From Rhodohalobacter barkolensis (lineage in GTDB: Bacteria; Bacteroidota; Rhodothermia; Balneolales; Balneolaceae), in contig NZ_PISP01000001.1 of NCBI RefSeq assembly GCF_002834295.1, positions 124,001 to 188,000 of the forward strand: a stretch of 64,000 nt of DNA, given 5' to 3'. The notes beneath the pieces are model-generated. The model was not told the DNA's origin. It searched no databases and worked only from the letters and a program-made list of their open reading frames with translations. The position numbers and the translations under genes were made by a program. Positions 5,952-51,843 of the stretch are shown piece after piece (position 1 is the first letter of the stretch; every line of letters begins with the position of its first letter).

Positions 5952-6000
5952 ATCGATTGACGAAACACCGAAGGATCGAACTGCGAATCACGATTTGGAT
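5952..6000. repeat. Heptamer array, GAAY type
   Basis: CG-A-A/T cores recur at spacings of 8, 8, 7 and 7 bases, with units such as CGAACTG, CGAATCA and CGATTTG. A related array is at 6508-6548 (GAATGAC, GAATCAC units). Confidence 0.7.
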
Positions 6001-6030
6001 CTTGATTCACGAAATGTACTAAAAACCCAA

Positions 6031-6150
6031 TCTCGTAGAGGTGGAATACCATTAGCCCCGGGTTTCAACCCGGGGATATAAATTAGACGTTCATTTCTCC
6101 GCCGAATAGAGAGATAGGTAAAGAGTGAGAATCAAAATAGAGGTGGTATT
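6031..6150 (-). repeat. E-element, half form (R, P1, P2)
   Basis: P2 stem is CTC-gta-GAG. P1 is CCCCGGG paired with CCCGGGG around TTTCAA. R begins GCCGAATAGAG and ends near GAGGTGG. Confidence 0.75.
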
Positions 6151-6180
6151 GCGGGGATCTTATTAAAAATGGAATGTTCT

Positions 6181-6455
6181 GTTACTTTTGGCTTGATCCG
6201 CCTAAGGTCGGACAGGCTCCAAAAGTAACCCGAAAATCAAGGCTGAGAAAAATTGACACCGTGTTCTGTTCGAATGAGTCACAAATTCAATGCCTGAATG
6301 TCATCCTGAACGCAGTGAAGGATCTCAAAATTTGTTGCTAGTATTTTGGAGACCCTTCGACAAGCTCAGGGTGACGCTAGAGGCTGGTGAATTTGTGTTT
6401 TCCTCATTCTCACATTTACACTTTCACCTGTCAATTTCTCAATGCCGGTTTTGTT
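6181..6455 (+). repeat. R2 palindrome with nested hairpin
   Basis: The outer inverted repeat is GAGAAAAATTGACA against TGTCAATTTCTC. The next pair is TCACAAATTCA against TGAATTTGTG. A GTCATCCTGAAC...GCTCAGGGTGAC hairpin (6301-6375) sits in the loop. Other R2 copies are: 13016-13212, 15830-15893 (half), 17327-17395 (half), 23560-23800, 27685-27955, 29715-29910, 38762-38995, 39190-39370, 41014-41245 and 47588-47657 (half). Confidence 0.75.
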
Positions 6456-6614
6456 CAGTTTACATAGTACAGTGTATCGATAGAGAAAAAAATTTGTGAA
6501 TAATATATTGCATATCGAATGACGAATCACTGAATGATCGAACTCTGTGAAGTGGTTATAACGAGGTGTCTATATTAAACCTCAGATTTCCCTCCTTAAA
6601 GACAACATCGTGTG

Positions 6615-6657
6615 CCATACAACGTACACCGCAAACCGTACAACGTATCACGTAAAA
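6615..6657. repeat. Heptamer array, CCGTA type
   Basis: Six consecutive 7-base units built on CCGTA/ACGTA, for example ACGTACA, CCGTACA and ACGTATC. It runs directly into the terminator of the dienelactone hydrolase gene. Confidence 0.75.
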
Positions 6658-6696
6658 AACCTGACATTGACAGGTGCTGTGCACGCTGTCAGGTCT
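6654..6696 (-). terminator. Intrinsic terminator of the 6726-7559 gene
   Basis: On the minus strand, ACCTGACA (6694-6687) pairs with TGTCAGGT (6666-6659) and is followed by six T residues. It lies 30 bases past the stop codon. Similar CTGTCAGG/CTGACAG hairpins occur near 11515-11555, 28095-28137, 30035-30077, 54318-54356, 55205-55243 and 55451-55487, several of them just past gene ends. Confidence 0.75.
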
Positions 6697-6725
6697 TTTG
6701 GATCATCAAAATGTATGGCAACAGG

Positions 6726-7559
6726 TTAAAACAATTCGTCAAAAAACTGCTTCATTCGCTCCCAAGACTGCTCATCAACATCGGCGTTGTAGGCGAGAGG
6801 GAGATCAAACTCCTGGCCAAGGCTGTCTGCTGCGGGATTGGTGTAGGCATGAGTAGCACCATCATAACTAACAAACTCATAAGAGGTACCTAATTCGTCG
6901 TAAGCAGATGTAAGGTTTTCGATATCCTCTTCAGAAACCATGGGATCGTCGGCGCCGTTGAGGATCAGGATTTCCGTGTCAATCTCTTCTTCCGGCATTA
7001 TGGGGAGTTGAAGTCCGGCATGAAATGCTACGATTCCATCCAGGTCGGCACCGGAGTGGGCCATTGCCAGAATTACACTTCCTCCAAAGCAGTAACCGAT
7101 AGCCCCGATCTGCTCTCCGTTTACCATCGAGTGGTTACGGAGTGTTTCCATTGCAGCGGTGAAACGTTCATTGGCATTCTCAAAATTTCCCATCACTTCA
7201 CCGGAGAACTGCATAGCATCTTCAGGGTGATCAGCCATTCGTCCATCACCGTACATATCGACAGCCAGGGCCACATAGCCCAGTTCGGCTAATTTTTCAG
7301 CACTGTTACGAGCGTGCTCATCATGTCCCCACCATTCGTGGACGACCAGAATTCCGGGACGCTCTCCCTCCAAATTGTCATCATAGGCGATATATCCGTT
7401 CATCGTCAGATCGCCGGCGCTGTAACTCACTTCTTCACCAACTACTGCAGGACTATCATCCATCTCCATCTTTTCTGACTGAGATTGTGATTCGGGCTGT
7501 CCACAAGCTGCCAGCATTAATATTGATCCAAATAAAAAAAGGTATTTCAAAGATTTCAT
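6726..7559 (-). CDS. Dienelactone hydrolase family lipoprotein
   Basis: A 277-residue alpha/beta hydrolase of the dienelactone hydrolase family. It begins with a lipoprotein signal peptide with lipobox LAAC and Cys19 as the lipid anchor, so it is membrane-attached outside the cytoplasm. The catalytic triad is visible: nucleophile Cys157 in GYCFGG, Asp205 in GADDPMV and His237 in GATHAYT. Classical members hydrolyse dienelactones in chlorocatechol breakdown. Exported lipoprotein versions are common in marine Bacteroidota, and their substrate is unknown. It is monocistronic, with a strong terminator 30 bases downstream. Confidence 0.92.
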   Translation of the reverse strand: MKSLKYLFLFGSILMLAACGQPESQSQSEKMEMDDSPAVVGEEVSYSAGDLTMNGYIAYDDNLEGERPGILVVHEWWGHDEHARNSAEKLAELGYVALAVDMYGDGRMADHPEDAMQFSGEVMGNFENANERFTAAMETLRNHSMVNGEQIGAIGYCFGGSVILAMAHSGADLDGIVAFHAGLQLPIMPEEEIDTEILILNGADDPMVSEEDIENLTSAYDELGTSYEFVSYDGATHAYTNPAADSLGQEFDLPLAYNADVDEQSWERMKQFFDELF

Positions 7560-7984
7560 AACTGTCGGGTTGGTTGAAATTGAAATGTCGTACTCTTAAC
7601 CGTGCTTTCAGGTTAAAAAATTCCACTGTTATGACAGTAGGTGATTTATGGTGTTCGGTGTACGGTATATACAATTCGATGTAAACTTTTCATTTACGTT
7701 AATAATCGAGAGCAAACCCCTGATATTTGAGCTAAACAGTTTTGCAATTTCAATTCAAGAATGTCTACACAAGCTGTTTCATTTATCACTTCCTATATGA
7801 GATCTATAGCTGTAAGTGTATGGGGGAGAATAAATTTATTTATCTGATGTAAACCTAAAAATTTCATTGGGATGCTGTATAAGTTTTCAGGTTAGCTCTA
7901 CCTGAATTTCCAAAAAAGTGAAACCGGAAGGTGTCTGAACCGTAGAGTGGAGTGAATTACAACCTACAATCGGATAGATAAAAG
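7560..7984. other. Divergent intergenic region, 425 bp
   Basis: It separates the leftward hydrolase from the rightward DUF5916 gene, so both promoters should lie here. It is AT-rich and unique, with no E-element or heptamer array, unlike most other gaps. I see no promoter that I can call with confidence. Confidence 0.5.
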
Positions 7985-10717
7985 ATGGAGTTTACAGCTA
8001 CAAAAAAGTTCACAATTTTACTATGTCTTTTTTGCATCCTGACCTGTGCACAGGCCGGATTTGCTTATGATAATGATAAGGTTTTGAAAATAGCTCAGGA
8101 ATTAGAAGAACAGTCGGATAGTATTAAAATCAAGAAGCCGGCTGAATACCAACTGCAGGCTCATCGTGTAGAACCCGGTGCTGTTTCAATTGATGGTTAC
8201 CTTGAAGAATCCATTTGGGAATCTGCACGCGTTGCCACAAACTTTACCCAACACACACCAGATACCGGAGAACCGGCCAGCCAGAAAACGGAAGTTCGGT
8301 TTCTCTATGATGATGATTACCTCTATATCGGGGCTCGAATGTACGATCAAAATCCGGACGAGATTGCGGCGACACTTTTTCGTCGGGACGGAAACGAGTA
8401 TAGTGACTGGTTTTTAGTTGGTATTGACAGCTATAATGACAACCGAACAGCGTTTGTGTTTGGGGTAAACCCGAGGGGAGTTCGTAAGGACTACCTGATT
8501 TATAATGATAATCAGGATGATATGAGCTGGGATGCTGTCTGGGAAGCTTCGGCATCTATTGATGACGATGGGTGGACTGCTGAACTCAGGATCCCGCTTT
8601 CCCAGCTGCGCTACAATGGTGAGGTTGGCAAGATGAAAAGTTGGGGGCTCAACTTCTCTCGTGCAATTGCCCGAAACGGTGAAGAATCTTTTTGGGCACC
8701 AACACTACCGGACGACTCCGGAATTGTATCAAACTTTGGAAGAGTTACTAACCTGCGAGAACTGCCCGAAAAAAATCGTTTAGAAGTACTGCCATATCTT
8801 TCCGGTCAGCTCGATCGATCGCCGGGAGATCATCAAAATCCATTTTACAAACAGCATGACCCTTCCTTTAATCTGGGCGGAGATATCAAGTACGGTTTGA
8901 GTTCGAATATGACGCTGACAGCAACGGTGAATCCAGATTTTGCACAGGTGGAAGTAGATCCGGCCGTGGTAAACCTTTCAGCTTTTGAGACTTTTTATCC
9001 GGAGCGCCGGCCATTTTTTCTTGAGGGTTCGGAAATCTTCAGTTTTGGGTTTAGCAGTAATATTGATCTTGGTGATACACCCCGTCTTTTCTACTCAAGA
9101 AGAATCGGGCGTGCACCACAGGGACCTGTGCCAGGCGATCCCCAATTTATCGATCGTCCATCTCAAACCCCCATAGCCGGGGCGATAAAGCTGAGTGGAA
9201 AAACGTCCGATGGATGGTCACTTGGATTACTAAACGCATTGACTTTGGAGCAGAGTGCAAGCTACAGCGCAGAGGGAGATGATATTCAGAACGTGAGTGT
9301 TGAACCACTCAGTAACTACACTGTAGGAAGGCTGCAGCGCGATTTTCGGGAAGGTCACACCGTAGTAGGACTAATGGCGAATAGTCTCTACCGTGACCTG
9401 TCGATACCCAGTCTTGAATCTACTCTGACAGATCAGGCATTTAGCGGCGGACTTGATTTTGAACACTCCTGGCAGGATAGAAAATATCGATTCAACGGCC
9501 GGTTTGCGGGAAGTCATGTAAGCGGTGATCCTGAGGTAATCAACCGGTTACAGCGATCGAGCGCTCGCTATTTTCAGCGTCCTGATGCTGGTCATCTGAA
9601 TCTTGATCCGGATCTGACCAGCCTCCAAGGGCTTTATGGAGACGTGATGTTTACTTCTCAAACCCGCCATTGGATGAGTCAGTTTCGTGCATATCAGATC
9701 ACGCCCGGATTTGAGGTGAATGACATGGGATTTCAGTCGGCCGCCGATCGCCGGGCTATGACGGGAATGCTGATTCATATGCAACCCAGTCCAATTGGGA
9801 TCCTTCGGAATTTCAATGTCTGGGCAGCCACTGCCAATAGCTGGAATACAGACGGTGACTATGTGATGAATTTGCACGGAACAGGTGGAAGTTTCCGATT
9901 TCAGAATTTCTGGAGCTTGAATTATGAACTACTTGGAGGCGTGCGCTCTCTTGATGATCGTCTGACAAGAGGAGGTCCGCTTGCTCAAAGTCCATCTTCC
10001 ATCCGGTTGAATATGAATGTAAGTACTGATTCCAGAAAAGATTTCAGAACAACTGTACAGTTCAACCAGGTGAGATCAGAATTGGGTGACTGGTCACAAC
10101 ATTTCGGACTAACATTACGATATCGGCCCCATCCTGCAGCCTCGATTTCACTTGTGCCTTCACTGTCCAGAAACTTTAATAAAACACAGTATATAGCAGC
10201 GATTTCTGACCCAAATGCCACAGCTACCTTTGGAAATCGATATGTTTTCGCTGAACTGGAGCAAACCACGCTGGCTACAGCTATCCGTCTGGAGTGGACG
10301 TTCACGCCTGATATCAGCCTGCAGATGTTTGCCCAGCCGTTTGTATCGGTTGGATCGTTCGACCGGTTTAAGCAGCTCGAACGCCCGAAGAGCATGGATT
10401 ATTCCGTATATGGAGAAGATATCGGAACGGTCAGTTATGATGATGTGTCCCGACGATATGAAATCGACCCGGATGGAAGCGGCGATGCAACGTTTGATTT
10501 TGGGAATCCGGACTTTAATTTCCGGTCCCTTCGTGGAAATGCCGTGGTTCGATGGGAGTTTCGACCGGGATCTACAATCTTCTTTGTATGGCAGCAAAAC
10601 CGTACCAGTCGTGAATCAATTGGTAGCCTGAATATGGGGCATGATTATGGAGAGTTGTTCCGCACTCCTGCGGATCACACCTTTATGGTGAAATTCTCGT
10701 ATTGGCTGGGGTATTAA
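7985..10717 (+). CDS. DUF5916 outer-membrane barrel protein with CBM9-like N-terminal domain
   Basis: A 910-residue exported protein. A signal peptide (residues 1-27, ending near AQAGFA) is followed by a CBM9-like beta-sandwich (about 55-215: SIDGYLEESIWE, then EVRFLYDDDYLYIGARMYD). The rest is a DUF5916 region rich in alternating strands, predicted to be an outer-membrane beta-barrel. The landmarks VNPDFAQVEVDP and FYPERRPFFLEGSEIF are typical of the family. The protein ends in an aromatic strand (KFSYWLGY), as barrel proteins do. Its role is not established; family members are common beside peptidase or carbohydrate genes in Bacteroidota. A terminator-like repeat lies 16 bases past the stop. 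Confidence 0.92.
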   Translation: MEFTATKKFTILLCLFCILTCAQAGFAYDNDKVLKIAQELEEQSDSIKIKKPAEYQLQAHRVEPGAVSIDGYLEESIWESARVATNFTQHTPDTGEPASQKTEVRFLYDDDYLYIGARMYDQNPDEIAATLFRRDGNEYSDWFLVGIDSYNDNRTAFVFGVNPRGVRKDYLIYNDNQDDMSWDAVWEASASIDDDGWTAELRIPLSQLRYNGEVGKMKSWGLNFSRAIARNGEESFWAPTLPDDSGIVSNFGRVTNLRELPEKNRLEVLPYLSGQLDRSPGDHQNPFYKQHDPSFNLGGDIKYGLSSNMTLTATVNPDFAQVEVDPAVVNLSAFETFYPERRPFFLEGSEIFSFGFSSNIDLGDTPRLFYSRRIGRAPQGPVPGDPQFIDRPSQTPIAGAIKLSGKTSDGWSLGLLNALTLEQSASYSAEGDDIQNVSVEPLSNYTVGRLQRDFREGHTVVGLMANSLYRDLSIPSLESTLTDQAFSGGLDFEHSWQDRKYRFNGRFAGSHVSGDPEVINRLQRSSARYFQRPDAGHLNLDPDLTSLQGLYGDVMFTSQTRHWMSQFRAYQITPGFEVNDMGFQSAADRRAMTGMLIHMQPSPIGILRNFNVWAATANSWNTDGDYVMNLHGTGGSFRFQNFWSLNYELLGGVRSLDDRLTRGGPLAQSPSSIRLNMNVSTDSRKDFRTTVQFNQVRSELGDWSQHFGLTLRYRPHPAASISLVPSLSRNFNKTQYIAAISDPNATATFGNRYVFAELEQTTLATAIRLEWTFTPDISLQMFAQPFVSVGSFDRFKQLERPKSMDYSVYGEDIGTVSYDDVSRRYEIDPDGSGDATFDFGNPDFNFRSLRGNAVVRWEFRPGSTIFFVWQQNRTSRESIGSLNMGHDYGELFRTPADHTFMVKFSYWLGY

Positions 10718-10732
10718 ATTAAAAAAGCGATC

Positions 10733-10784
10733 CTCGTCTGCCCGAATTCCGGCGTGCATTTCGCCGGTTCGTGCGACGAGTTTT
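10733..10784 (+). terminator. Terminator-like R4-end hairpin after the DUF5916 gene
   Basis: Outer arms CTCGTC and GACGAG are followed by TTTT. The inner stem CCGGCG-tgcattt-CGCCGG is perfect. The same CTCGTC/GACGAG unit recurs at 35385-35426, 37310-37403, 39540-39589, 41609-41654, 44639-44683 and 44998-45044. Confidence 0.65.
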
Positions 10785-10925
10785 CCAGGTTGCAGGCCAA
10801 AAGCCGGAGGTTTCCTTTCCTTGTCCAGAGCTCCGCTTCGGCGGTGATAAAACTGCAGCTCCGCAGCATATGTATATCTTCAACATCAATTTGAATTGTG
10901 ATGGTGAATAGACGATCTGTTGACA

Positions 10926-11041
10926 CCGCCTCAACAAGCCCTGAATACCAAACCAATCCCTCTGTTCGGCGGATTGTTGGTGATTACCTAAGAACCCATC
11001 CATGAATGGATGGGCTAGGATGTGTGTCATGGCTACGCCAT
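10926..11041 (+). repeat. E-element, half form
   Basis: R runs 10926-10972 (CCGCCTCAAC to TTCGGCGG). P1 has arms CCCATCCAT and ATGGATGGG (10995-11014). P2 is ATGGC-tac-GCCAT. These stems are unrelated in sequence to the GC-rich P1/P2 stems elsewhere, yet they hold the same positions. Confidence 0.8.
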
Positions 11042-11092
11042 TGAATTACTCATTGGTTATCATTCACAAATCGGTCGTTCGTCGTTTATTAC

Positions 11093-11128
11093 CCCGTCGG
11101 CATGCTGCTTTTGCAGGCTGACGGGTTT
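11093..11128 (+). repeat. R3 hairpin (CCCGTC/GACGGG) with T-tract
   Basis: CCCGTC and GACGGG flank GGCATGCTGC...GCAGGCT and are followed by TTTTT, so it could terminate rightward transcripts. Related copies are: 12764-12798, 23150-23184 (degenerate) and 27305-27334. More degenerate copies are near 17245-17280, 19593-19616, 24894-24912, 25184-25212 and 31268-31295. Confidence 0.6.
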
Positions 11129-11150
11129 TTCCAGGCTACAGATCGCAGGC

Positions 11151-11196
11151 CGCAAATCACAAATCGGCGTTCGTGATTCGTTATTCGCAGTTCAAA
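11151..11196. repeat. Heptamer array, GAAY type (minus strand)
   Basis: Read on the minus strand, six units follow at exactly 7-base spacing: GAACTGC, GAATAAC, GAATCAC, GAACGCC, GATTTGT, GATTTG. The same unit order recurs in the 45086-45132 array. Confidence 0.8.
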
Positions 11197-11319
11197 AAAG
11201 CTGTGCAATGGGTCGCCTGACGAGTGGAATGTATTTTTCCTCGTCCGGGAGCTCTGCTCCGGCGGTGATAAAACTGCAGCTCCGCTACATAAAACGTCTT
11301 AACCAGATTTCGAACGGGA

Positions 11320-11435
11320 CCGCCTCAACAATCCCTTAATTCCAAACCAATCCCTTTATTCGGCGGATTATTGGGGGTTACCTGAGAACCCATCAATGAA
11401 TTGATGGGCTAGGATGTGTGTCATAGCTACGCCAT
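11320..11435 (+). repeat. E-element, half form
   Basis: R runs 11320-11366. P1 arms are CCCATCAAT and ATTGATGGG (11389-11408), a compensated change from the copy at 10926. P2 is ATAGC-tac-GCCAT. Confidence 0.8.
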
Positions 11436-11567
11436 TGAATTACTAACTGGGTATCATTCGTAAACCTTACACCTTACACCTTATGCCGTAAACCGAATAT
11501 CATTCGCATCTCGACGCAGACAGGATCCATCAGCCGATGGAACGCTGTCAGGTCGCATGGATTCCCA

Positions 11568-12653
11568 CTAATTTTCAGGTACCTGATATACCATTGAATT
11601 GATATTCATTCCGGCACCGACGGAGGCGAAGATGATGGTATCACCGGGGTTTATGCTGTGGCCGTCCAGTTGTTTGCGGAGGATTAAATCGAGCAGGGTA
11701 GGTACGGTGGCCACGCTTGTGTTGCCGAGTTTGGAGATGGTCATCGGCATGATATCATTTGGCATCTCTTGCTTATCATAGAGCTTAAAGAGACGTTGGA
11801 GTATTGCTTCATCCATCTTCTCATTGGCCTGGTGAATCAGAACTTTATTGACATCCTTCAGATCGAGTCCCGCTTTTTCGATCGACTTTTTGACGAGTCC
11901 CGGAACGTTCGATAAGGCGTATTGGTAGAGTTTTCGACCATCCATTTTCAGGTAGAGAGTGTCATCGGCGCTCTCATCATAAGAACGATCCATATTCAGA
12001 TAGTGAACCTGAGTTTCTGTATCTGTACGTGCGGCATGGGATAGGATGCCTGAATCAGTTCCGGAGTTGTCCGCTTGTAAAACGGTAGCACCGGCACCAT
12101 CGGCATAAATCATGCTGTCGCGATCGTGGGGATCACAAACCCGCGAGAGGGTTTCAGTACCAATTACCAAAGCCGAGGTAGCATCTCCGCTACGAATAAA
12201 ATAATTAGCCTGAATCATTCCCTGAAGCCAGCCGGGACAACCAAACGGCAGGTCATATGCCACACAGTATGGATTTTTGATTCCCAGGTGATATTTTACT
12301 TTTGAGGCCAGGCTCGGAACCATATCCACTCTGCGGTTCTCAGCACGAACATCTCCAAAATTGTGGGCAACGATAATATAGTCGAGATTTTCACGGTCCA
12401 GTCCGGACATATCAAGCGCCTTTTCAGAGGCTTTTGCGCCCATATCGGAGGCAAGCATGTTGGCGTCGGCAAAACGGCGTTCCTCTATTCCCGTAATTTC
12501 CCGGAATTTTTCAATTGTCTCCTCATTCGATTTCTCAAATGGTGTTCCGTTTTTCTCCAGAAAGGTGTTTTTTAAAAAATTGCTATTGGGAACAACTCTG
12601 TTAGGAATGTAAGATCCGGTTCCTGTGATGACTGTTCGGATTTGAGGGGCCAT
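11568..12653 (-). CDS. Beta-ketoacyl-ACP synthase III family (FabH-like) protein
   Basis: A 361-residue thiolase-fold protein. The condensing-enzyme triad is visible: Cys139 in LPFGCPGW, His274 in LIHQAN and Asn311 in LGNTSV. FabH-type enzymes condense an acyl-CoA with malonyl-ACP to start fatty-acid synthesis. It is somewhat longer than a housekeeping FabH, and the long N-terminal extension before TGIEERRFA suggests a paralogue for a special acyl chain or secondary lipid. No other lipid-synthesis gene is adjacent. The ATG at 12653 begins MAPQIRTVITGTGSYIP, the normal family start. Confidence 0.9.
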   Translation of the reverse strand: MAPQIRTVITGTGSYIPNRVVPNSNFLKNTFLEKNGTPFEKSNEETIEKFREITGIEERRFADANMLASDMGAKASEKALDMSGLDRENLDYIIVAHNFGDVRAENRRVDMVPSLASKVKYHLGIKNPYCVAYDLPFGCPGWLQGMIQANYFIRSGDATSALVIGTETLSRVCDPHDRDSMIYADGAGATVLQADNSGTDSGILSHAARTDTETQVHYLNMDRSYDESADDTLYLKMDGRKLYQYALSNVPGLVKKSIEKAGLDLKDVNKVLIHQANEKMDEAILQRLFKLYDKQEMPNDIMPMTISKLGNTSVATVPTLLDLILRKQLDGHSINPGDTIIFASVGAGMNINSMVYQVPEN

Positions 12654-12825
12654 AAGAGTAACGTTTTGAGCTTTATTTGAGCCTAATTGGAGATATACGA
12701 AAAATGCTATTGAATGTCGAGTTGTTCAAGCTTCAAGTTTAAAGCCACAGGCTGCCATCGTATACCTGTCGGCATGTTGTAGTTGCAAGCTGACGGGGTT
12801 TTCCAGGCTACTAGTCGCAAGCTTC

Positions 12826-12866
12826 ACTTCGTAATTCGGTGTTCGAAATTCACAAATCGGAGTTCA
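12826..12866. repeat. Heptamer array, GAAY type (minus strand)
   Basis: Minus-strand units GAACTCC, GATTTGT, GAATTTC, GAACACC and GAATTAC are 7 bases apart. Sister arrays lie at 13252-13298 and 13719-13768. Confidence 0.75.
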
Positions 12867-13015
12867 AACCACAATTGCAGAACGGGTCGCCTGACCCGTT
12901 GGATTGACTGCACCTCTCTTTGCATTGTTTGGGAACTCCCCCCTTATTCCTCTCTTCATTTCGTTTTTAGAGAGGGGAGACGATGTTGCAAAGATCTTAT
13001 GTCAAACAAACTCCT

Positions 13016-13212
13016 TGTCTCTTTTGTCTTGATACAAAAGAGACATAAAAAATCAAGGCTGTGAGAAATTGACAGCGTGTTCTGTTCGAATGAGTCACAA
13101 ATTCATGGCTTGTCTAATTGATACTTCGCATCTCTGCTTATTGGAGGCTGGTGAATTTGTGATTTTCTCATTCTTACATTCACACTTGTTTCTGTCAATT
13201 TCTCAAGGCCGT
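13016..13212 (+). repeat. R2 palindrome, empty loop
   Basis: GAGAAATTGACAG (13052-13064) is inverted as CTGTCAATTTCTC near 13192-13204, and ATGAGTCACAAATTCA is inverted as TGAATTTGTGATTTTCTCAT. The loop lacks the GTCATCCTGA hairpin found in other copies. A separate TTTGTCTTGATACAAA hairpin precedes it. Confidence 0.75.
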
Positions 13213-13487
13213 TTTTACTCTGTCTGCAAGCGTAAGGCTAATAGATTTAGTAAGTCAATTCGTAAATCGTCGTTCGAAATTCGGAGTTCAAATCACAATT
13301 GCTAAACGGGTCGCCTGACCCGTTGGATTGACTGCGCCTCTCTTTGCATTGTTTGGGAACTCACCCCTTGTTCCCCTCTCTCTTTACTCTGTTCTCAGAG
13401 AGGGGCGATGTAAACTCTGATTTTCGTATGGTAATAAATCTTGGAGGAAGTGGGATATCTGATAAGATATAATCAAAATTTTGAGGG

Positions 13488-16343: not shown

Positions 16344-16412
16344 GGGTCGTGAATCACGGTAGGCCCACGCAACCGTCGCCTCCAGTTTGATCTGCGAACG
16401 GAATCATTAATT

Positions 16413-41654: not shown

Positions 41655-41660
41655 GGGTTT

Positions 41661-43316: not shown

Positions 43317-44446
43317 AAGAGCAGCTCTACCCGGTCAACCCCGATCGTACAAAACCCTGGAATGATCTTCCGGAACTCCCGATTGCCCCGACTCTCTACC
43401 GGGATGTGGATATTTATGAGCAGCTGGGCTTGGCAAAGGAGGCCCTGGCGCTGCTGGCTGGACGAAGTATTGCAATTCCCAACCCCGGTATGCTCATCAA
43501 CTCCATCACCCTGCAGGAGGCGAAGGTATCGAGTGCCATTGAGAATGTGTTTACGACCGATGATGATCTCTACAAGGCGCTCAGTGATTCCAAAGCGGAT
43601 GGTAAAGCACCGGCCCCGGCGAAGGAGGTGCTGCGCTACCGTGAGGCTTTGTGGGAGGGATATCACTATTTGGAGGAGAACGGTGCATTTGACCGGGACT
43701 ATTTTATCCGGCTCTATCAGATTATCCAAGAGAGCGGCGATGAAATCCGTCCGCCATTTGCCAGAACTTTTATACGGATGGGGGGTACCGGTCCGAACAC
43801 AGGAAAGCCAGCCTACACCCCGCCCCGGGGCCAAGGGATAGTGGAGGCCAGGCTCGACAACCTTATCGATTTCCTGAATGATGAGCAGTCACAGCCCGAT
43901 GATGTTCTGCTGAAGATGTGCATTGCCCATTACCAGTTTGAGGTGATTCACCCGTTCCGGGACGGCAACGGACGTGTCGGCCGTATCATGAACCTGCATA
44001 TTATTACGCGGCATCATCAGTTGGATCTGCCCATTCTCTATTTGAGCCGTTATATCCTGGAGCACAAACAGGATTATTATGAATACCTGGCGGGGGTATC
44101 TCAGCAGGGCGACTGGAAGAGCTGGTTTCTCTATATGCTGAAAGCTGTGGAGTGGACTTCACGGCTCACCCTGCGCAAGGTGAATGATATCATCGAAAGC
44201 AAGGAGGAGATACTTGACGTGCTGCGCAGTCAGACGGATGTCCGCCGGCCGGAGGATCTCGCCGAAGCGATCTTTACCCAACCCTATATTAAGGTTAACC
44301 ATCTGACCGATAAAGGCGTTTATGCAGAAAATACAGCGCGAAATTACTTGAATGAATTGGCGGATTTACAAATTCTGGAGAAAAAAGAGATCAAGGGAAA
44401 GCACTACTATATTAACCCGGCATTGGTGGAAATTCTGTCGTATTGA
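43310..44446 (+). CDS. Fic family protein (class II, wHTH C-terminus)
   Basis: A 378-residue paralogue of the 28191-29273 protein. It has the Fic_N-type start (PWNDLPELP), the inhibitory motif SSAIEN at 74-79, the catalytic motif HPFRDGNGRVGR at 214-225 and a C-terminal winged helix (VNHLTDKGVYAENTARNYLNELADLQIL). The ATG at 43310 sits inside the right arm of a palindromic operator. With its own DNA-binding-like domain and no separate regulator gene, autoregulation is plausible. The overall design matches the SoFic-type single-chain AMP transferases; the target protein is unknown. Confidence 0.93.
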   Translation: MPKEQLYPVNPDRTKPWNDLPELPIAPTLYRDVDIYEQLGLAKEALALLAGRSIAIPNPGMLINSITLQEAKVSSAIENVFTTDDDLYKALSDSKADGKAPAPAKEVLRYREALWEGYHYLEENGAFDRDYFIRLYQIIQESGDEIRPPFARTFIRMGGTGPNTGKPAYTPPRGQGIVEARLDNLIDFLNDEQSQPDDVLLKMCIAHYQFEVIHPFRDGNGRVGRIMNLHIITRHHQLDLPILYLSRYILEHKQDYYEYLAGVSQQGDWKSWFLYMLKAVEWTSRLTLRKVNDIIESKEEILDVLRSQTDVRRPEDLAEAIFTQPYIKVNHLTDKGVYAENTARNYLNELADLQILEKKEIKGKHYYINPALVEILSY

Positions 44447-44739
44447 GCAAACTGTCATATTATTCAAAAAGGTGAATCGTCAATTAGTAATTACATCATT
44501 CATTCGGTAATGGTAATTGTAGCGGAGCTGCTGGGGTGTCGTCGCTGGAGCGGAGCTCCGGGACGAGGATATGGGAATGATGAATTGGGCGAGTTTGGGA
44601 TTTGCTGTTTTGGTGCTTGCGTCCTGCGGCTTGAAAACTCTTCAGGCGAACAGCCGCAACTGCACGCCGGAATTCGACAAACGAGGAATAATCGAATAAT
44701 GAATTGTGAAGTGTAATATTCAGATGGGTTAGAGCCGAC

Positions 44740-44866
44740 TATCCCGGAGGGATAGAATGTGATTAGCCCTGGGTGAAGTGAAACGAAACCCAGGGAATAG
44801 AGGCCAACCAAAATTTTCCGCCGAATAGAGGGATTGGTTTGAAATACTGGGTTTTGTTGAGGCGGT
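44740..44866 (-). repeat. E-element, half form
   Basis: P2 is TATCCC-gga-GGGATA. P1 is CCCTGGG...CCCAGGG with the loop TGAAGTGAAACGAAA. R is CCGCCGAATAGAG...TTGAGGCGG. Confidence 0.8.
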
Positions 44867-45085
44867 TCCATAACGAATTGGGTTTGACTAAATACCGTTC
44901 GAAATGTGGTTAAGACATTTTGAACAGCAGAGCTGCAGGTTGTCGTCACCGAAGCAGAGCCCCGGGACGAGAAATGAGGAATGAAACTTGAAAAAACTTG
45001 TCAGGCGAACCGCCGCAAAAGCGCGTCGGAATTCGACAGACGAGGGAGAATCAACGGTTCAGACGAACCGTTGCATAGTGACGAA

Positions 45086-45132
45086 TTGAACTGCGAATGA
45101 CGAATCACGAACGCCGATATGCGATTTGGGGC
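45086..45132. repeat. Heptamer array, GAAY type
   Basis: GAACTGC, GAATGAC, GAATCAC, GAACGCC, GATATGC, GATTTGG. Unit order matches the minus-strand array at 11151-11196, implying copying of whole arrays. Confidence 0.85.
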
Positions 45133-45240
45133 ATAGCTTATAGCCTGGATATACCCTCCAACTCCCAATCGCTATCTAGTGTGCAAAATCTTCGAAAAGC
45201 AAGCCCTGTAAAACAGAATGCCGACAGGTGATTTACACCC

Positions 45241-45366
45241 TGCCCCAGCGGGGTAGCATGTTGGTAGCCCCGGATGAAGTGAAACGAAATCCGGGGGATA
45301 TTAGGCTGGCCAAAATAACCGCCGAATAGAGGGATTGGATTGGAGTACTGGATTTAATTGAGGCGG
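45241..45366 (-). repeat. E-element, half form
   Basis: P2 is TGCCCC-agc-GGGGTA. P1 is CCCCGGAT...ATCCGGGG, a compensated change (GGAT/ATCC instead of GGGT/ACCC). R is intact. Confidence 0.8.
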
Positions 45367-45545
45367 TTCCCTTTAAATTTGGTTAATACGATTTGTGCAG
45401 CTGAGCTGCGGTTTGTCGTCTTCGGAGCGGAGCACTGGGACGAGGAGAGTGCAATTGAATGTCGAATATCGAATGACGAACGCTGAGCTGTGAAGTGACT
45501 TCCTGCTGCCTGAAACTTGCGGCTTGGATAAACCCGTCAGTCTGC

Positions 45546-45588
45546 ATCGTATGCCGTAAAACGAATTCCGTACGCCGTCAACCTCAGC
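45546..45588. repeat. Heptamer array, CCGTA type, abutting a stop codon
   Basis: CGTATGC, CGTAAAA, CGAATTC, CGTACGC, CGTCAAC in strict phase, ending next to the DUF4153 gene stop. Confidence 0.82.
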
Positions 45589-47430
45589 TTACTCTTCAAA
45601 TGAGAAATAGAGTCCGAAGTTTGCATTCAGGCTTGTGATCTCACCGTTTTGCCGTTGACCGGTTATCGAATTGAAGACAAGTTTTACCTTCAGGGATTCA
45701 TTCTGCTGTTCGAGGGTCATCCTCTCAATAGATAAAGCTTCTATTTTCATCGCACCGGTTTCAGGCAGCTCTTCGATAAAGGGTTTAAGTTCAAATACCA
45801 ACGAACGCCCGGTCGCTTTCTCTGTGATATGGATTTCAAGATTTTCGTCTTTCAGTGAAATCGTGTAAACCCGTTCTCCAATGGTTGTCTCAAACTCTTG
45901 TGAACTCAGCCACATCTCAATTTCACCGACATAATGGTCATAACCCTGCAAAGGTACAGGATCTGTCCTGCGCTTTTGCACCTGGAACGTGGCAAAGCCT
46001 GAGCCATCTCCCTCTTCCATCTCCCAGTTACTCACATAATCAATACCGATTAGGCCCGTAATGACTTGAGCATCTGAAACAACATTCATAGTGTCTTTAT
46101 TTGCAAGTACCTCTTTTAGGTCTTCCTCAAAATAGGGCTGAATGGATTGAACACCCTTCAGATCGAGCAGGTACGTAATTCCCGAACTGATCTGCTTTCG
46201 ATCGTTAAATGGGATTTCATTTTCGGTCTTGATGACGGTTCCGTTTTCAGAAAACAGACCGTGTTCTTCTAAATGATATTCCAGTCTGCTTAGCTGACTT
46301 CTTTCAGAGACCTCGAATGCACTCAGCGGACCAAATGAGATCAGTATCATAATCAGAAACAGGGAGGTTGGGATCACTCTGATATCTTTCACTTTACTGA
46401 TCAGGAAATAGATCACCACTCCGGTCAGCCATACGGCCAGGGTTGCAACATAGTATCGATTCACCGTTACACCGTATTCAGAAATCCGGACCCAAATGGA
46501 GAGCATGAGGAGAATGATCAGCGGTATAAGAGCAATATAGTATCCTTTCGAAAACAGGCGTACCCATTTGTGATCATCTTCGTCCTGAATAGGGTAGAGT
46601 AAGAGTAGCCCCAATATTCCCGCGATCGAAAAATTGAGCACAAGGTGAGCCACCCAGCCGTTCGGCCACTGCCACTCGATGATGATCTTGCCCGTGTAGA
46701 GATAGAGAATTACTATGTATACGACGATCAGGGGAATGAGAACATACTGAACAAAAATTCTCAAACCTTTCGGATAGGCTTTCTCTTCGTCCGTTAATTG
46801 ATTGGGATGGGGAACTCCTGATAGAAAGAACCAGGTACCAAAAATTCCGATCAAAAATATAGCTAGCTGCCCATATCGTTTCCCTTCAATGTCGAATTCG
46901 AGAAGTACTTCTAACGAATACATGGCAATCGTTAATCCAACGTACAAAACACCAACATACAGAACGGAGAGTAGAATTCTGAGGAACAGGGTTTTATTGT
47001 AGGCCCAGAAGTCCTGAACACTTTTATCCCCTAAATAAGGTGCAAACGAAACCAAAAGATGAGATGACAGAAACAGCAAGGAGTATCGGTAAAACGCTTC
47101 AGAATTTGAGGGCTCAAAATCTTCGGGCAGAAACAGGTAATAAACGGCAAGCAGAAGAACGGCCGCACCACTGGAAAGGTATCGTTTGATGGGATTCCAA
47201 CTTCTGCTTTCGCTTAAAACGCTGATTGCGAGGAGCAGTGAAATGGATAGTGCAGAGACCCAGCTAAAATTCCGGACCCAATAGTATCCATCCCGCTGAT
47301 CCCACGGTAAATCTACCAGCAAGATGACACCCAAAGTACCCAGAATGGCGAAGGTTAAAACGAAGGGGAATCTGCGAATTGTAGCTGAGGCATTTGAGGT
47401 AATTTGCTGAATAGACGGCAGCCGTATCAT
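45589..47430 (-). CDS. DUF4153 family membrane protein
   Basis: A 613-residue protein. About twelve hydrophobic helices cover the first 400 residues, including FPFVLTFAILGTLGVILLV and FVQYVLIPLIVVYIVILYLY. A soluble C-terminal region of about 200 residues follows. The family landmark WFFLSGVPHP and the helix following YPKGLRIFVQYVLIPL support DUF4153. Function is unknown; some relatives occur near cell-envelope genes. Single gene, ATG at 47430. Confidence 0.85.
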   Translation of the reverse strand: MIRLPSIQQITSNASATIRRFPFVLTFAILGTLGVILLVDLPWDQRDGYYWVRNFSWVSALSISLLLAISVLSESRSWNPIKRYLSSGAAVLLLAVYYLFLPEDFEPSNSEAFYRYSLLFLSSHLLVSFAPYLGDKSVQDFWAYNKTLFLRILLSVLYVGVLYVGLTIAMYSLEVLLEFDIEGKRYGQLAIFLIGIFGTWFFLSGVPHPNQLTDEEKAYPKGLRIFVQYVLIPLIVVYIVILYLYTGKIIIEWQWPNGWVAHLVLNFSIAGILGLLLLYPIQDEDDHKWVRLFSKGYYIALIPLIILLMLSIWVRISEYGVTVNRYYVATLAVWLTGVVIYFLISKVKDIRVIPTSLFLIMILISFGPLSAFEVSERSQLSRLEYHLEEHGLFSENGTVIKTENEIPFNDRKQISSGITYLLDLKGVQSIQPYFEEDLKEVLANKDTMNVVSDAQVITGLIGIDYVSNWEMEEGDGSGFATFQVQKRRTDPVPLQGYDHYVGEIEMWLSSQEFETTIGERVYTISLKDENLEIHITEKATGRSLVFELKPFIEELPETGAMKIEALSIERMTLEQQNESLKVKLVFNSITGQRQNGEITSLNANFGLYFSFEE

Positions 47431-47785
47431 ACTCTATCCTATAAATTTATGCTTAATTGAATGTAGCACTATTTGGGTTTATAAAAAGAAAAAAGCTCCA
47501 CTCTCTTTGTCATGTGCTTTTGTATTAGAGGAAGGATTACGGTATACGATTTGAGATTATCTGGGAAGCTGGACTCTAGAAATAATGGCCTAGAGAAATC
47601 AGCGGAGAAAAGTGAGCAGCCGGGAGACGAAAAGAAAAACTTACCAGCCTCTCGTCGCCGGCGCAGAGCACCGGGACGAGGAGGGGGATTTTGAATGTCG
47701 AATATCGAATGACGAACGCTGAATGTCGATTTGAAGCCTGTTGCCTGTAAACTGCAAATACCGCATGTGTATACTGAATCGGAAA

Positions 47786-47912
47786 TGCCCCAGAGGGGCA
47801 AAATGTGATTAGCCTCGGGTGAAACGCAGTGAAACCCGGGGTTTAGATGAGCCCATTAACATGTCGCCGATCAGAGGGAATGGTTCGAAGTGTAAAGAAA
47901 ATTAGAGGCGGT
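47786..47912 (-). repeat. E-element, half form
   Basis: P2 is TGCCCC-aga-GGGGCA. P1 is CCTCGGGTGAAACG...AACCCGGGG. R begins CGCCGATCAGAGGG and ends TAGAGGCGG. Confidence 0.8.
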
Positions 47913-48178
47913 CACCTCACGAATTTGATGTTACTGTTGAGTCAGGCAATCCCGGTATGTGAATTATGTGAAACTAAAAAACTCCGCTTCTTGTCACGTT
48001 CATTTTTGTGAGAGGGATGGGTTGTCCTGCAGCAGAGCTGCAGACTCTCGTCGCCGGAGTAGAGAACCGGGACGAGGTGATGGTTCGAATATCGAATATC
48101 AAATGACGAACGCTGAATGACGATTTGAAGCCTGTTGCCTGCAACCTGCAAATACAGCATGTGGATGCGGAACCGAAA

Positions 48179-48306
48179 ATGCCCCAACGGGGCATAATAT
48201 GATTAGCCCCGGGTGAAACGCAGTGAAACCCGGGGTTTAGATGAGCCCATTAAAAAGTCGCCGATCAGAGGGCATGGTTCGAAGAGTAAAAAAAATTAGA
48301 GGCGAT
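48179..48306 (-). repeat. E-element, half form
   Basis: P2 is ATGCCCC-aac-GGGGCAT. P1 is CCCCGGGTGAAACG...AACCCGGGG. R is as in the copy at 47786. Confidence 0.8.
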
Positions 48307-48436
48307 CACCTCACGAATTCGATTTTACTTTTGGGACTCCATGTCACGTGTATATGCGTGAGAGTGAGGGGCTGGGTTTTCATACAGCGGAGCTGTGGGT
48401 TGTCGTCGTCGGAGCAGAGCTCCGGACGAGGAATAG

Positions 48437-48491
48437 ACCTGCCGCTTGTCGCCTGCGACCTGCAACTTGAAACCTGCGGCTTGTGACCTGA
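48437..48491. repeat. Heptamer array, CYTG type, abutting a stop codon
   Basis: Eight units in perfect phase: GACCTGC twice, CGCTTGT, CGCCTGC, AACTTGA, AACCTGC, GGCTTGT, GACCTG. It ends at the stop codon of the K+ channel gene. Further arrays at 47692-47757 and 48082-48160 are of GAAT/CYTG type. Confidence 0.87.
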
Positions 48492-50126
48492 TTATGAATT
48501 GCTCAAATATTTCTCCTCAAAAAGGTAGATGCTTTCATCGGTTCCGGCAAGTATTACCTGGTCATTTTCTTTGAATTTGAAGGTCTGAGGGTCAACCGTA
48601 ATAATTTTTTTATCATTTCGGATGGCCATTAAAATAGTGCACCCAGTCTCTTGTCGTACATCACTTTCAGCGAGTGTAGTTCCGACCAGCTGTCCGGCAG
48701 GAAGTTGTTTCAGATTTATCTGCTTTTCTACTGCCAGGGAATCTTCATCTTCAAAGACAGAGGCGGCGAGCATCCGTCCGCTTACCGTGGTAACGGCCTG
48801 TACATAATCGGCCCCGGCATCGAAGATTTTACGAATATTGCCTTTGTTGTTAGCTCGTACAATAATATGTGCTTTAGGATTCAGATGTCTGGCCATAAGC
48901 GTGGCATAAATCGCTTTTGTATCATCCTGAATTGTGACAATTAACGACATGACATCCTCAATATCGGCTTTCTTCAGCGTCTCTGTTTTCGTGATATCTC
49001 CAACAATATCCACGCCCTCTTTCTCCTGAATATCGATCACTTGTACGTCTACGCTTCTGCTTTTTAGAAACCGGGCTGCAGCATCTCCAGACTGCCCGTA
49101 GCCCAGTATCAGAACTTTACTTCGCCTAAATTGTCGAGTAGTGGATTCCGCTTTTTTGCTGAGTTCATCGATCTCCGCTTTTTCTCCGGCAACCAACAGC
49201 CGAATCTTTGAATCCAGAATTAAATCGGGAGAGACAGGACTGTTAAATTCATCTTTTTGCCATGCTCCAATGATGTTCACATGATGATTGTCCAAAAGTT
49301 TAGCCGATTTTACCGACCGATTACAAAGTTCACTTCCCTCTTCAATGTCGATCTCAATTAACTCGATATTATTATCAATTTCTACGCTGTCGATAATTGA
49401 AATTGCAGGGACCTGTTTGGCCAGGCTTTCACCGATAAGTTGCCGTGGGAGGATGGTGACATCGGCACCGGCCAATTTGTAGTACACCTCTTCCTCTTCC
49501 TGGTCCAACACCGCAATGATATTGATTGTTTCAGATGCATTTCTTGCTGTAAGTATGGTACTAATGGATTTTTCAACGGTGGATTGCAGAACCAGGGTAG
49601 ATGCTGAACCGATACAGGCATTGAGTAGAATTGCATCCGACTCAGGGTTACCGACAATCACATTCATGCCTGATAGGTGAAGCTGTGATACCAGCTGATC
49701 ATCCTGTTCAATAATTACATAATCTTTACCGCGCGAGTCTAACTCCTGAATTAAAACATCCGCATGGTTCGAGTAACCACATATAATTACATGGTCGGAT
49801 TTGGAAATTTTTTGAGGCGGGCTTTTTTCAATAGCACGTTTTAGAATCGGGACAATCAACACCGGAAAAGCGAAAAAAACGAGTGCGACACCGGTCACAT
49901 TCATGATTACAATAAAGTAGTTCATAAAATCGCTCTGCCAGGGCGCATAACCGCCGTATCCGCTTGTGGTTAAGGATTCAACGACTACCTGAAGTGACTG
50001 TGAAAAAGTTACATGCTGATCTTCAAAATAGAGCATCGACCACGAAAAGAGGATGGAATAGCTGATGATAATCCCCAATACAGTAAGTATGGAGAAGAAT
50101 ATTCTGTTTGAAAAGTTTTTATCCAT
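48492..50126 (-). CDS. K+ channel-like protein with two RCK (TrkA) modules
   Basis: A 544-residue protein. Two transmembrane helices (about 9-31 and 67-94) flank a pore loop with filter TTSGYGG (53-59), a variant of the usual TVGYG. Two cytoplasmic TrkA-N/TrkA-C modules follow: HVIICGYSNHADVLIQEL near 112, then VLILGYGQSGDAAARFLKS near 343. The Gly-rich GYGQSG loop fits NAD(H)/nucleotide binding; the first loop is weaker (GYSNHA). The C-terminal TrkA-C ends KENDQVILAGTDESIYLFEEKYL. The likely role is regulated K+ conduction. The unusual filter could change selectivity, which sequence alone cannot settle. Confidence 0.88.
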   Translation of the reverse strand: MDKNFSNRIFFSILTVLGIIISYSILFSWSMLYFEDQHVTFSQSLQVVVESLTTSGYGGYAPWQSDFMNYFIVIMNVTGVALVFFAFPVLIVPILKRAIEKSPPQKISKSDHVIICGYSNHADVLIQELDSRGKDYVIIEQDDQLVSQLHLSGMNVIVGNPESDAILLNACIGSASTLVLQSTVEKSISTILTARNASETINIIAVLDQEEEEVYYKLAGADVTILPRQLIGESLAKQVPAISIIDSVEIDNNIELIEIDIEEGSELCNRSVKSAKLLDNHHVNIIGAWQKDEFNSPVSPDLILDSKIRLLVAGEKAEIDELSKKAESTTRQFRRSKVLILGYGQSGDAAARFLKSRSVDVQVIDIQEKEGVDIVGDITKTETLKKADIEDVMSLIVTIQDDTKAIYATLMARHLNPKAHIIVRANNKGNIRKIFDAGADYVQAVTTVSGRMLAASVFEDEDSLAVEKQINLKQLPAGQLVGTTLAESDVRQETGCTILMAIRNDKKIITVDPQTFKFKENDQVILAGTDESIYLFEEKYLSNS

Positions 50127-50385
50127 AGAATTTTAAACGATCACAATTGCGCGTGGACATAAAATCAGCGTATTTATCAAAATAGATGAATTACGGCAAA
50201 TCATAAATGTTTAATTGGAGAATGCAATTTTATTAAATGTGGTCAGAGCATTGTCACCTCAAATATATTGTGATTTTTTCCCGTCCTAGTGCTTAGTTCC
50301 GGGGACGACAATTCTGCAGCTCTACTGCATGAAATATCCGGACCAGCTTTTGAATGTTTTGTCGGTAATGTTATTCGGATACCGA

Positions 50386-50504
50386 CCGCCTCTATTTTGA
50401 TTTGTACTCCAAACCGATCTCTCTTTTCGGCGGGGGAGATGTATGGCTCATATTTACCCCACGCTGACGCGTGGGGCTACCAACATATTGTCCCTCCGGG
50501 ACAG
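50386..50504 (+). repeat. E-element, half form
   Basis: P1 is CCCACGC-tga-CGCGTGGG, a different but still complementary stem. P2 is TGTCCC-tcc-GGGACA. R runs CCGCCTCTATT to TTCGGCGG. Confidence 0.82.
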
Positions 50505-50833
50505 TCAATTCCGGGTAGTGAATTGTGTGCAAGTAAATAGCTCCTATCCATGTCACGCGCTTTTTGCGTGAGAGAGGAAGGGGTGGGTTGTCATACAGCA
50601 GAGCTGCAGGGTTGTCGTCAACGGAGCAGAGCACCGGGACGAGGAGATGGTTTGAATGTCGAATATCGAACGCCGAATAACGATCGGTTGCCCTGAAACT
50701 TATAGTCGGTGTAGTGAGTTATCGACAAGCTCCCCGATTAACTGCATCGGGGCACTGCGCACTGACGTTGGCCTGAAGCCTGCAGCTTGAATCCTGTAAC
50801 TTGTATATACAGCATGTGGATGCGGAACCGAAA

Positions 50834-50960
50834 ATGCCCCAACGGGGCATAATATGATTAGCCTCGGGTGAAACGCAGTGAAACCCGGGGTAAAGAGGAT
50901 GACAATCATGAATCGCCGAATAGGGAGAGTACTTCAGGACCCCGGACAGCGTTGAGGCGA
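50834..50960 (-). repeat. E-element, half form
   Basis: P2 is ATGCCCC-aac-GGGGCAT. P1 is CCTCGGG...CCCGGGG. R is diverged (TCGCCGAATAGGGAG...TTGAGGCGA). Confidence 0.78.
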
Positions 50961-51059
50961 TAATCCTTTGGATGTGTTTATATCTAAATTATAACTCAGC
51001 TAATCTAAAACCCTCATTTTTGTTGGGAGATACTTTATTTCGGCATTATTAAAAAAAAA

Positions 51060-51178
51060 CCGCCTCAATTCTGTTTTGCACCCCAAACTCATCCCACTGT
51101 TCGGCGGGTGGAATGTGTTGATCTGTTTACCCCGGGTTAAAACCCGGGGCTATTCATGTGCTGTCCCTCTGGGACAGG
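51060..51178 (+). repeat. E-element, half form
   Basis: R runs CGCCTCAATTC to TTCGGCGG. P1 is CCCCGGGTT-aa-AACCCGGGG. P2 is TGTCCC-tct-GGGACA. Confidence 0.82.
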
Positions 51179-51308
51179 GTTGATTTGTAGTAAAAGTGAA
51201 GAGAAAATTCCCCTCCATGTCGTGTGCGTTTGCGTAAGAGGGAGGGTTGTCATACAGCGGAGCTGCAGGCTCTCGTCACCGGAGCAGAGCACCGGGACGA
51301 GGAGATGG

Positions 51309-51372
51309 TTAGAATGTCGAATATTGAATGAAGAACACCGAATGTCGATTTGATGCTTGTTCCATGTAATTT
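51309..51372. repeat. Heptamer array, GAAY type
   Basis: GAATGTC, GAATATT, GAATGAA, GAACACC, GAATGTC, GATTTGA, then CTTG units. A partner array lies at 51740-51815 (GAATGAC, GAATTTC, GAATATC, GAACACC, GAATGAC, GATTTGT). Confidence 0.83.
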
Positions 51373-51403
51373 GTATATACAGCATGTGGATGCGGAACCG
51401 AAA

Positions 51404-51520
51404 ATGCCCCAACGGGGCATAATATGATTAGCCCTGGGTGAAACCCGGGGTTTAGATGAGCCCATTAAAATGTCGCCGAATAGAGGGAATAGTTTGGAGA
51501 GAAAAACAAATTAGAGGCGA
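51404..51520 (-). repeat. E-element, half form
   Basis: P2 is ATGCCCC-aac-GGGGCAT. P1 is shortened (CCCTGGGTGAAACCCGGGG). R runs CGCCGAATAGAGGG to TAGAGGCGA. Confidence 0.78.
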
Positions 51521-51843
51521 TCATCTCAGGAATTCGATTTTACTTTGGGACAGTCAATTCCGGTCGTGAATTGTGTGGAACAAAATAGCTCCCCTCCATG
51601 TCACGCGCTTTTTGCGAGAGAGAGGCTGGGCCTGCCTTCTGAATCCCGAATGATTTCGGGAGAAGGAAGGGGTGGCTTGTTCTGCAGCAGAGCTGCTGGT
51701 TGTCGTCACCGAAGCTGAGCTCCGGGACGAGGAGGGAGAATTTGAATGACGAATTTCGAATATCGAACACCGAATGACGATTTGTGGCTTGCTACCTGAG
51801 GCCTGAAACCCGGAAGTATTAATGACGAGTAGTTAGAACTACG

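Follow-up and report, generated by a model that had tools for sequence, protein, structure and literature searches.

Repeats with a unit of seven bases are over-represented in bacteria, and the excerpts of the literature considered here note that little detailed work has been devoted to them. The closest described systems, in reports likewise represented by excerpts, are the heterogeneous heptamers of Xanthomonas (GGGNATC or (GGGANTN)n) and Nostoc (GGGGAYT) (PMC4692102), along with the sets of 4–5 tandem heptanucleotide elements of Geobacter metallireducens (GGGACCG and MTYCTGA; PMC2700814). Earlier work suggested a polymerase-footprint reason for the 7-nt unit (reported in PMC4692102). Here, we describe arrays of 7-base units (heptads) in a 64,000-nt stretch of a Rhodohalobacter (Balneolaceae) genome (R. 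barkolensis, NZ_PISP01000001.1, positions 124,001–188,000; “the window”, whose coordinates are used unless a contig is named). These arrays are concentrated in a 46-kb block, where many belong to a copied hairpin-flanked composite that may serve as a joint for gene-block turnover. An earlier note on this stretch, made from the sequence alone, knew of no described system with such variable triplets in this lineage; arrays with fixed and variable positions have, however, been published, at least for Xanthomonas ((GGGANTN)n) and G. metallireducens (MTYCTGA, five-fold) as excerpted from these two reports.

The 7-base periodicity is real, strong, and specific. Across the whole window, 694, 336, and 175 windows of 42 nt reached ≥24, ≥26, and ≥28 self-matches at lag 7, against 0.2, 0, and 0 in dinucleotide shuffles. 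Lags 4, 8, 10, and 13 yielded no scoring 42-nt windows and the remaining lags at most 29 each, apart from the harmonics at lag 14 (252 windows with ≥24 matches) and lag 21 (156). A segment finder counted 33 lag-7 segments, i.e., arrays, at our threshold rather than the ~40 of the earlier note, which was right that they are intergenic: none overlapped the 19 named genes of the window. Arrays lay near the 3′ rather than the 5′ ends of genes, with 7 of them ≤60 nt from a 3′ end where 1.7 were expected (p ~0.001). Their units are arranged head-to-tail, as in simple heptamer microsatellites of the short tandemly repeated repetitive (STRR) type, but are not near-identical, since mismatch at lag 7 amounts to 18–46% within arrays. 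The variability claimed for the units was thus borne out, and fresh simple slippage, which the earlier note had also argued against, does not describe them.

We next compared the locus with the sister R. halophilus JZ3C29 (NZ_MDWE01000004.1) and a further relative, LKNA01 (LKNA01000048.1). On R. halophilus contig C45, the counterparts of C1:110256–129842 and of C1:175935 onward adjoin: homology on the left stops at 5842 and returns with the PBP1A gene at 51844, the two flanks being separated by 78 nt in the sister. Positions 5843–51843 therefore form a 46-kb block that the sister lacks at its syntenic site, as a genomic island would be lacking, with no integrase, transposase, tRNA, or conjugation gene recognised in the window that could represent machinery of its own. 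At one threshold, 31 arrays were found in these 46 kb and 21 in ~1.01 Mb sampled outside the window, a 32-fold difference in density (67 vs 2.1 per 100 kb, the genome-wide rate being an estimate from this sample). Coding density is ~0.5–0.58 in the block against mostly 0.8–0.95 elsewhere. At both ends of the block there are GAAT-type heptads of one orientation. Arrays and block cover the same stretch, which the earlier note missed because a single window could not show the absence in the sister.

The intergenic spacers of the block are mosaics of repeated modules. Their commonest order is hairpin A (CGTC..CGGAGC-AGA-GCTCCG..GACG), GAGGAG, 5–6 GAAY heptads, CYTG heptads, and hairpin B (CTCGTC..CCG..CGG..GACGAG, its stem kept across copies), at times in tandem; arrays with CCGTA, ATCT, and ATCG cores lie outside this composite. 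About 25 composite copies from this genome, R. halophilus, and LKNA01 have a recognisable common unit order, approximately GAATGTC, GAATATC, GAATGAC, GAACGCC, GAATTTC, GATTTGT, TGCCTGC. The GAAT arrays are thus not independent inventions but copies of one composite. The two distant arrays whose shared unit order had been pointed out, 11151–11196 (minus strand) and 45088–45132 (plus strand), do both read GAACTGC GAATRAC GAATCAC GAACGCC GAT, and the proposed copying of whole arrays followed by diversification holds up, since hairpin-anchored copies combine a slow core with fast positions 5–7. The core types listed in the earlier note are all present, and switches of core without loss of phase were confirmed at 35131–35224, 35302–35372, and 37244–37307. 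The refuting finding named in the earlier note, i.e., that the arrays are fragments of one longer repeat, applies in part, as the GAAT/CYTG arrays are pieces of a dispersed hairpin-flanked composite. An exact search of the 3.6-Mb genome with GAATNNCGAATNNCGAAT returned 9 occurrences, 8 of them in the window and all on the same strand. Among 84,980 genomes, a collection possibly without this one, the 18-base motif of hairpin B was found in only four: three bear the label Balneolaceae, and the fourth is labelled Chitinophagaceae although the genome tool assigns it to Rhodohalobacter. Gap lengths between copies show a local peak at 7 (77, vs 41 at 6 and 11 at 8), which is suggestive only, as alignment of periodic DNA favours gaps in multiples of 7. 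The block and its arrays are, with strand and basis in parentheses:

5843..51843 (no strand; comparison with R. halophilus, array counts): array-rich 46-kb block, ~19 recognisable genes and long repeat-filled spacers
5945..6010 (+; direct reading, under the lag-7 threshold): degenerate GAAT-type heptads, left block end
6616..6654 (+; lag-7 segment): CGTANNN heptad array
11151..11193 (−; lag-7 segment, unit reading): GAAT-type array, GAACTGC GAATAAC GAATCAC GAACGCC GATTTGT
13718..13775 (−; lag-7 segment, unit reading): GAAT-type array
20671..20741 (+; lag-7 segment): ATCTCAN heptad array immediately ahead of a DASS-type transporter gene
22836..22957 (−; lag-7 segment, unit reading): GAAT-type array and hairpin A
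28033..28084 (+; lag-7 segment): CCGTANN heptad array
30085..30131 (+; lag-7 segment): CCGTANN array abutting the 3′ end of an acyl-CoA dehydrogenase-like gene
31751..31815 (−; lag-7 segment, unit reading): GAAT-type array
35131..35224 (+; lag-7 segment): TTGG heptads passing into CYTG heptads, phase kept
35258..35430 (+): full composite with hairpin A (to 35294), GAAT then CYTG heptads (35302–35372), and hairpin B (35380–35428)
35488..35568 (+; lag-7 segment): GAAT then CYTG array, 25 nt off the stop of an ATP-grasp gene
36927..37012 (+; lag-7 segment): ATCG-core heptad array
37244..37307 (+; lag-7 segment): GAAT then CYTG array
37716..37787 (+; spacer alignment): GAAT then CYTG array, right flank orthologous to R. 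halophilus C34:464, left flank unrelated
38483..38575 (+; spacer alignment): GAAT array 9 nt past a gene; R. halophilus homology stops at the array end
39498..39635 (+): CYTG heptads, hairpin B (39543–39589), then GAAT array
41490..41655 (+): full composite with hairpin A, GAAT/CYTG heptads (41540–41601), and hairpin B (41609–41655)
45088..45146 (+; unit reading): GAAT array, unit order in common with the minus-strand array at 11193
45411..45526 (+): hairpin A and GAAT/CYTG array, right flank orthologous to R. halophilus C34:2995, left unrelated
47652..47758 (+; spacer alignment): hairpin A and array; the orthologous R. halophilus spacer lacks hairpin A
48043..48151 (+; lag-7 segment): hairpin A and array
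48398..48490 (+): hairpin A and CYTG-only array abutting the stop of a K+ channel gene
50610..50700 (+): hairpin A and GAAT array
51268..51378 (+): hairpin A and GAAT array
51698..51815 (+): hairpin A and GAAT/CYTG array, right block end, 29 nt off the stop of the PBP1A gene

Gene-block junctions coincide with these modules. Three genes of the block, for a 199-aa protein, a Fic protein, and a DUF4153 protein, have 85–91% identical counterparts in the same order on R. halophilus contig C34, which lacks the CIA30 and carboxypeptidase-regulatory genes between them. Across six orthologous spacers compared with the sister, homology begins or ends at an array or hairpin in at least four (e.g., at 37716, 38530, and 45455, with an array replaced at ~43130). 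C34 runs on into segments mapping to C1:1546 kb and C1:43 kb of the present genome, and both joins are at composites; LKNA01 contig C225 has the acyl-CoA dehydrogenase (ACAD), HIT, and carboxypeptidase-regulatory genes in kept order with other genes between. With similar composites on either side of neighbouring genes, these modules could act as joints, and on these comparisons they appear to behave as such in gene gain, loss, and relocation.

Within the arrays, the GAAT unit is GAAYDNY, with 2.0, 2.0, 1.34, 0.95, 0.32, 0.06, and 0.60 bits at positions 1–7, of which the first two were fixed by the unit-collection procedure. Only position 6 is nearly free, so that the earlier design of four fixed and three variable bases does not hold as such; its contrast between core and variable positions does hold between homologous copies, and is clear only there, not within single arrays. 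Our initial estimate of core conservation was biased because arrays had been found via their core, and was replaced by one that used hairpin anchors and unit-gapped alignment. There, the first four units of a copy set its register, a single degree of freedom with a mild bias towards the core. Compared unit by unit, close hairpin-anchored copies differ at positions 1–7 by 0.013, 0.019, 0.052, 0.091, 0.341, 0.227, and 0.295, respectively, and hairpin A differs by ~26% between the same copies. At 23–34%, positions 5–7 are therefore flank-like, and positions 1–4 are conserved between copies.

Heptads also occur beyond the block, with other cores and as perfect runs, e.g., (AATCGGC)n and (ACCAAAT)n in the same genome and GAATAAC in other genera of the family. 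The earlier note had proposed a 7-base autocorrelation check of other intergenic regions; lag 7 exceeded shuffled sequence in the window and was the commonest period both in the 1.01 Mb outside it (narrowly: 21 at lag 7, 18 at lag 6) and in 379 kb of relatives (23 arrays, with lag 8 following at 10). At one orthologous spacer (C1:1202870), each of the four species examined has heptads; their cores are related and their unit numbers differ. Since the genus also has heptads of other cores elsewhere, 7-nt slippage is the likely and simplest source.

Taken together, the feature is structured and unusual, and we lean, by little more than an even chance, towards heptad spacers born by slippage, fixed in a copied hairpin composite, and acting as a joint for gene-block turnover. 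Runs of 7-base units would arise between genes through slipped-strand duplication, which would be common in the genus, and subsequently mutate. One such run (5–6 GAAYDNY units, then CYTG units) would have been fixed between two hairpins in this lineage, and the composite copied many times, mainly inside the 46-kb block of single accessory genes. Gene blocks could then be added, dropped, and relocated when copies undergo ectopic recombination or template switching with one another. The core may be kept either since only core-pairing units join slippage or conversion, or since something binds it. Several points weigh against this reading. Slippage alone does not explain the strong conservation of positions 1–4. 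Breakpoints fall on either side of an array with no single crossover point seen, a pattern more easily reconciled with template switching or with exchange among dispersed copies by recombination than with the action of a site-specific enzyme; this rearrangement route is drawn from two genomes and fragments. The empty site in the sister has no heptads, and simple recombination between the two end arrays therefore cannot have made it exactly. The 46-kb difference may reflect either a gain here or a loss in the sister; two other members of the genus have different neighbours beside PBP1A. Outside the island, the excess of lag 7 over lag 6 is small. Finally, the per-array phase concentration of mismatches did not differ significantly from random decay (52 arrays, Fisher chi2 118, 104 df), which is why we relied on anchored copies, and residual unit misalignment inflates the differences at positions 5–7, although it cannot account for near-invariant positions 1–3 beside a diverging flank.

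Among other explanations, the first is a miniature mobile element family, similar to repetitive extragenic palindromes (REPs) and bacterial interspersed mosaic elements (BIMEs) or to miniature inverted-repeat transposable elements (MITEs), mobilised by, for instance, a REP-associated Y1 transposase, with the heptads as passive cargo between hairpins. The copies are indeed dispersed and both hairpins conserved, including the stem of hairpin B, the genome has 17 Y1_Tnp matches, and CGTC-tagged REPs are reported from Bacteroidetes (PMC3733652). However, CGTC is paired within the stem of both hairpins rather than an unpaired tag, no transposase was recognised in the window, and copies come as tandem or truncated pieces without fixed ends. 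For a MITE, with its fixed terminal inverted repeats and target-site duplication, the signs are mixed: each hairpin has CTCGTC/GACGAG arms, but the ends of copies are not constant. Heptad or hairpin modules occurred at 0 of 12 Y1_Tnp loci examined, and mobilisation by a REP-associated tyrosine transposase (RAYT) or IS200 element was rejected when no RAYT gene flanked by the same palindromes was found at these loci, which do not cover all 17 matches. We regard this explanation as unlikely.

Slightly more doubtful is that a sequence-specific protein with a nucleoid, regulatory, or partition role binds the arrays as DNA or RNA, with the GAAY core at 7-nt pitch as the site and the rest as spacer. 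Such binding, as proposed for the heptanucleotide sites of G. metallireducens in the excerpted report (PMC2700814), would suit a fairly constant unit number (5–6) and a core that changes several to ~20 times more slowly than positions 5–7 in hairpin-anchored copies. It fits less well with the sharing of one period by unrelated cores (GAAY, CYTG, CCGTA, ATCT, ATCG), in-phase switches included, or with arrays that are largely restricted to one accessory block and lie near the 3′, not the 5′, ends of genes, and no candidate protein was identified.

The arrays might instead be roleless decayed microsatellites and the block an old repeat graveyard, with breakpoints coinciding through poor alignment of spacers. 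Perfect heptamers in the same genome (C1:940001–960000) and family, the mismatch pattern within arrays, which is compatible with random decay, and the fast divergence of spacers in general would all be expected. Decay does not predict a core conserved between copies, a shared composite order, a 32-fold concentration in one block missing at the syntenic site, or junctions in or at an array where the homology of one side is intact, and we consider it improbable. We give the same low credence to a bolder form of our own proposal, in which composites are dedicated joints for integrase-free gene capture and the core is kept as the pairing anchor for copying by slippage or strand exchange; the arrays would then be self-selecting recombination tracts building a cassette-like block without attC or a site-specific recombinase.

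An integron cassette array, i.e., a cluster of attC sites lacking integron-integrase (CALIN) with the hairpins as attC, had to be tested because the genus has genuine IntI and attC: all four genomes have TIGR02249 integrases, which score 406–443 bits against a cut-off of 265. The gain or loss of single genes between sister loci also speaks for it, but it is already contradicted and most improbable: IntI is on another contig (C6:270659) with none in the window, the genuine attC beside intI are ~90 nt with GTATAAC/GTTATAC ends, paired AAC/GTT-end sites in the block are at background (14 vs 10.6 expected), no module of the block recurs in the intI flanks, and genes lie on both strands with junctions on either array side.

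None of the further candidates (ALTERNATIVES) tested accounts for the block, whether integrase, transposase, tRNA, or RNA family. A tRNA integration site was rejected with no tRNA in the window, and a known structured RNA with a SAM-I/IV riboswitch at 37819–37920 as the only Rfam match there. A plasmid origin was rejected as one full composite had 0 matches in 72,556 plasmids, and a viral source as the hairpin B motif was not found in IMG/VR viral contigs.

If the joints are confirmed, they would give a bacterium an integrase-free way to gather and shuffle single accessory genes. The locus also offers a natural test bed, with homologous copies in sisters, a block-free sister site, a measurable core/variable contrast, and junctions at repeats.

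Other repeats and genes were recorded alongside. A separate repeat family of 66–110 nt, with inverted copies 88–100% identical (23554–23800, 27680–27963, 38754–39368, and 41013–41220; 27809–27874 is identical to 39303–39368), is much younger than the composites, and an 83-nt tandem repeat (TGTCATTCTGAGCGGCAGCGAAGAATCT...) lies outside the block at 58913–59075. A second, smaller heptad-rich spot, C1:940001–960000, has 6 arrays, among them perfect runs of (AATCGGC)n and (ACCAAAT)n, together with a hairpin-B-like motif. In a Balneolaceae metagenome-assembled genome (SKKO01000179.1; L167:330–600), hairpin-B-like palindromes are followed by heptads of another core, CGGTCNN. Integron integrases with nearby attC (GTATAACCAGCAATT...AATTGCCAAACCGTTATAC) occur in Rhodohalobacter genomes at L130:15653–16615 and L132:4712–5710. 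The SAM-I/IV riboswitch overlaps the annotated start of the 199-aa open reading frame (37875–38474), whose true start is therefore probably further downstream, and the R. halophilus Fic counterpart appears frame-shifted, with two overlapping matches (L094:1576–2710). A 374-aa protein (31988–33499) has a Cas9-type HNH (Pfam HNH_4) as its sole recognised domain and forms a stand-alone pair with a HIT protein; diverged pairs are found in R. halophilus (C23) and probably LKNA01 (C225).

Compared with known systems, the block resembles chromosomal integrons and CALINs in its single-gene segments between structured repeats, gained or lost between sisters, but differs in having no attC above background, its integrase on another contig, genes on both strands, and no fixed recombination point. 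GTAG- and CGTC-tagged BIME/REP families (PMC3733652) are likewise extragenic mosaics of short palindromes, in many copies near gene 3′ ends, yet their palindromes, of 20–40 nt, bear an unpaired tag and come without 7-base arrays, whereas CGTC is paired here. TAACTGA direct repeats of Beggiatoaceae, Cyanobacteria, and Bacteroidetes (PMC4679880) are intergenic heptamers found in several lineages, with identical units mostly just upstream of start codons. The G. metallireducens elements share short dispersed groups of 4–5 heptads and a degenerate consensus, and differ in sequence, in being proposed regulator or RNA elements, and, in the excerpted report, in having no reported link to gene-block junctions. 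Xanthomonas and Nostoc heptamers share the 7-base period, intergenic location, fixed and variable unit positions, and length differences between close species. Unlike our arrays, they are G-rich quadruplex formers with one core per genome, spread chromosome-wide rather than concentrated in one variable block, and the excerpts of their description mention neither a hairpin-bounded composite nor core switching. GAAY, CYTG, CCGTA, and ATCT units are without G tracts; fixed and variable positions within the 7-nt unit (GAAYDNY) are present as in Xanthomonas, if not significant array by array. The locus combines a variant of known heptamer repeats with mosaic repeats.

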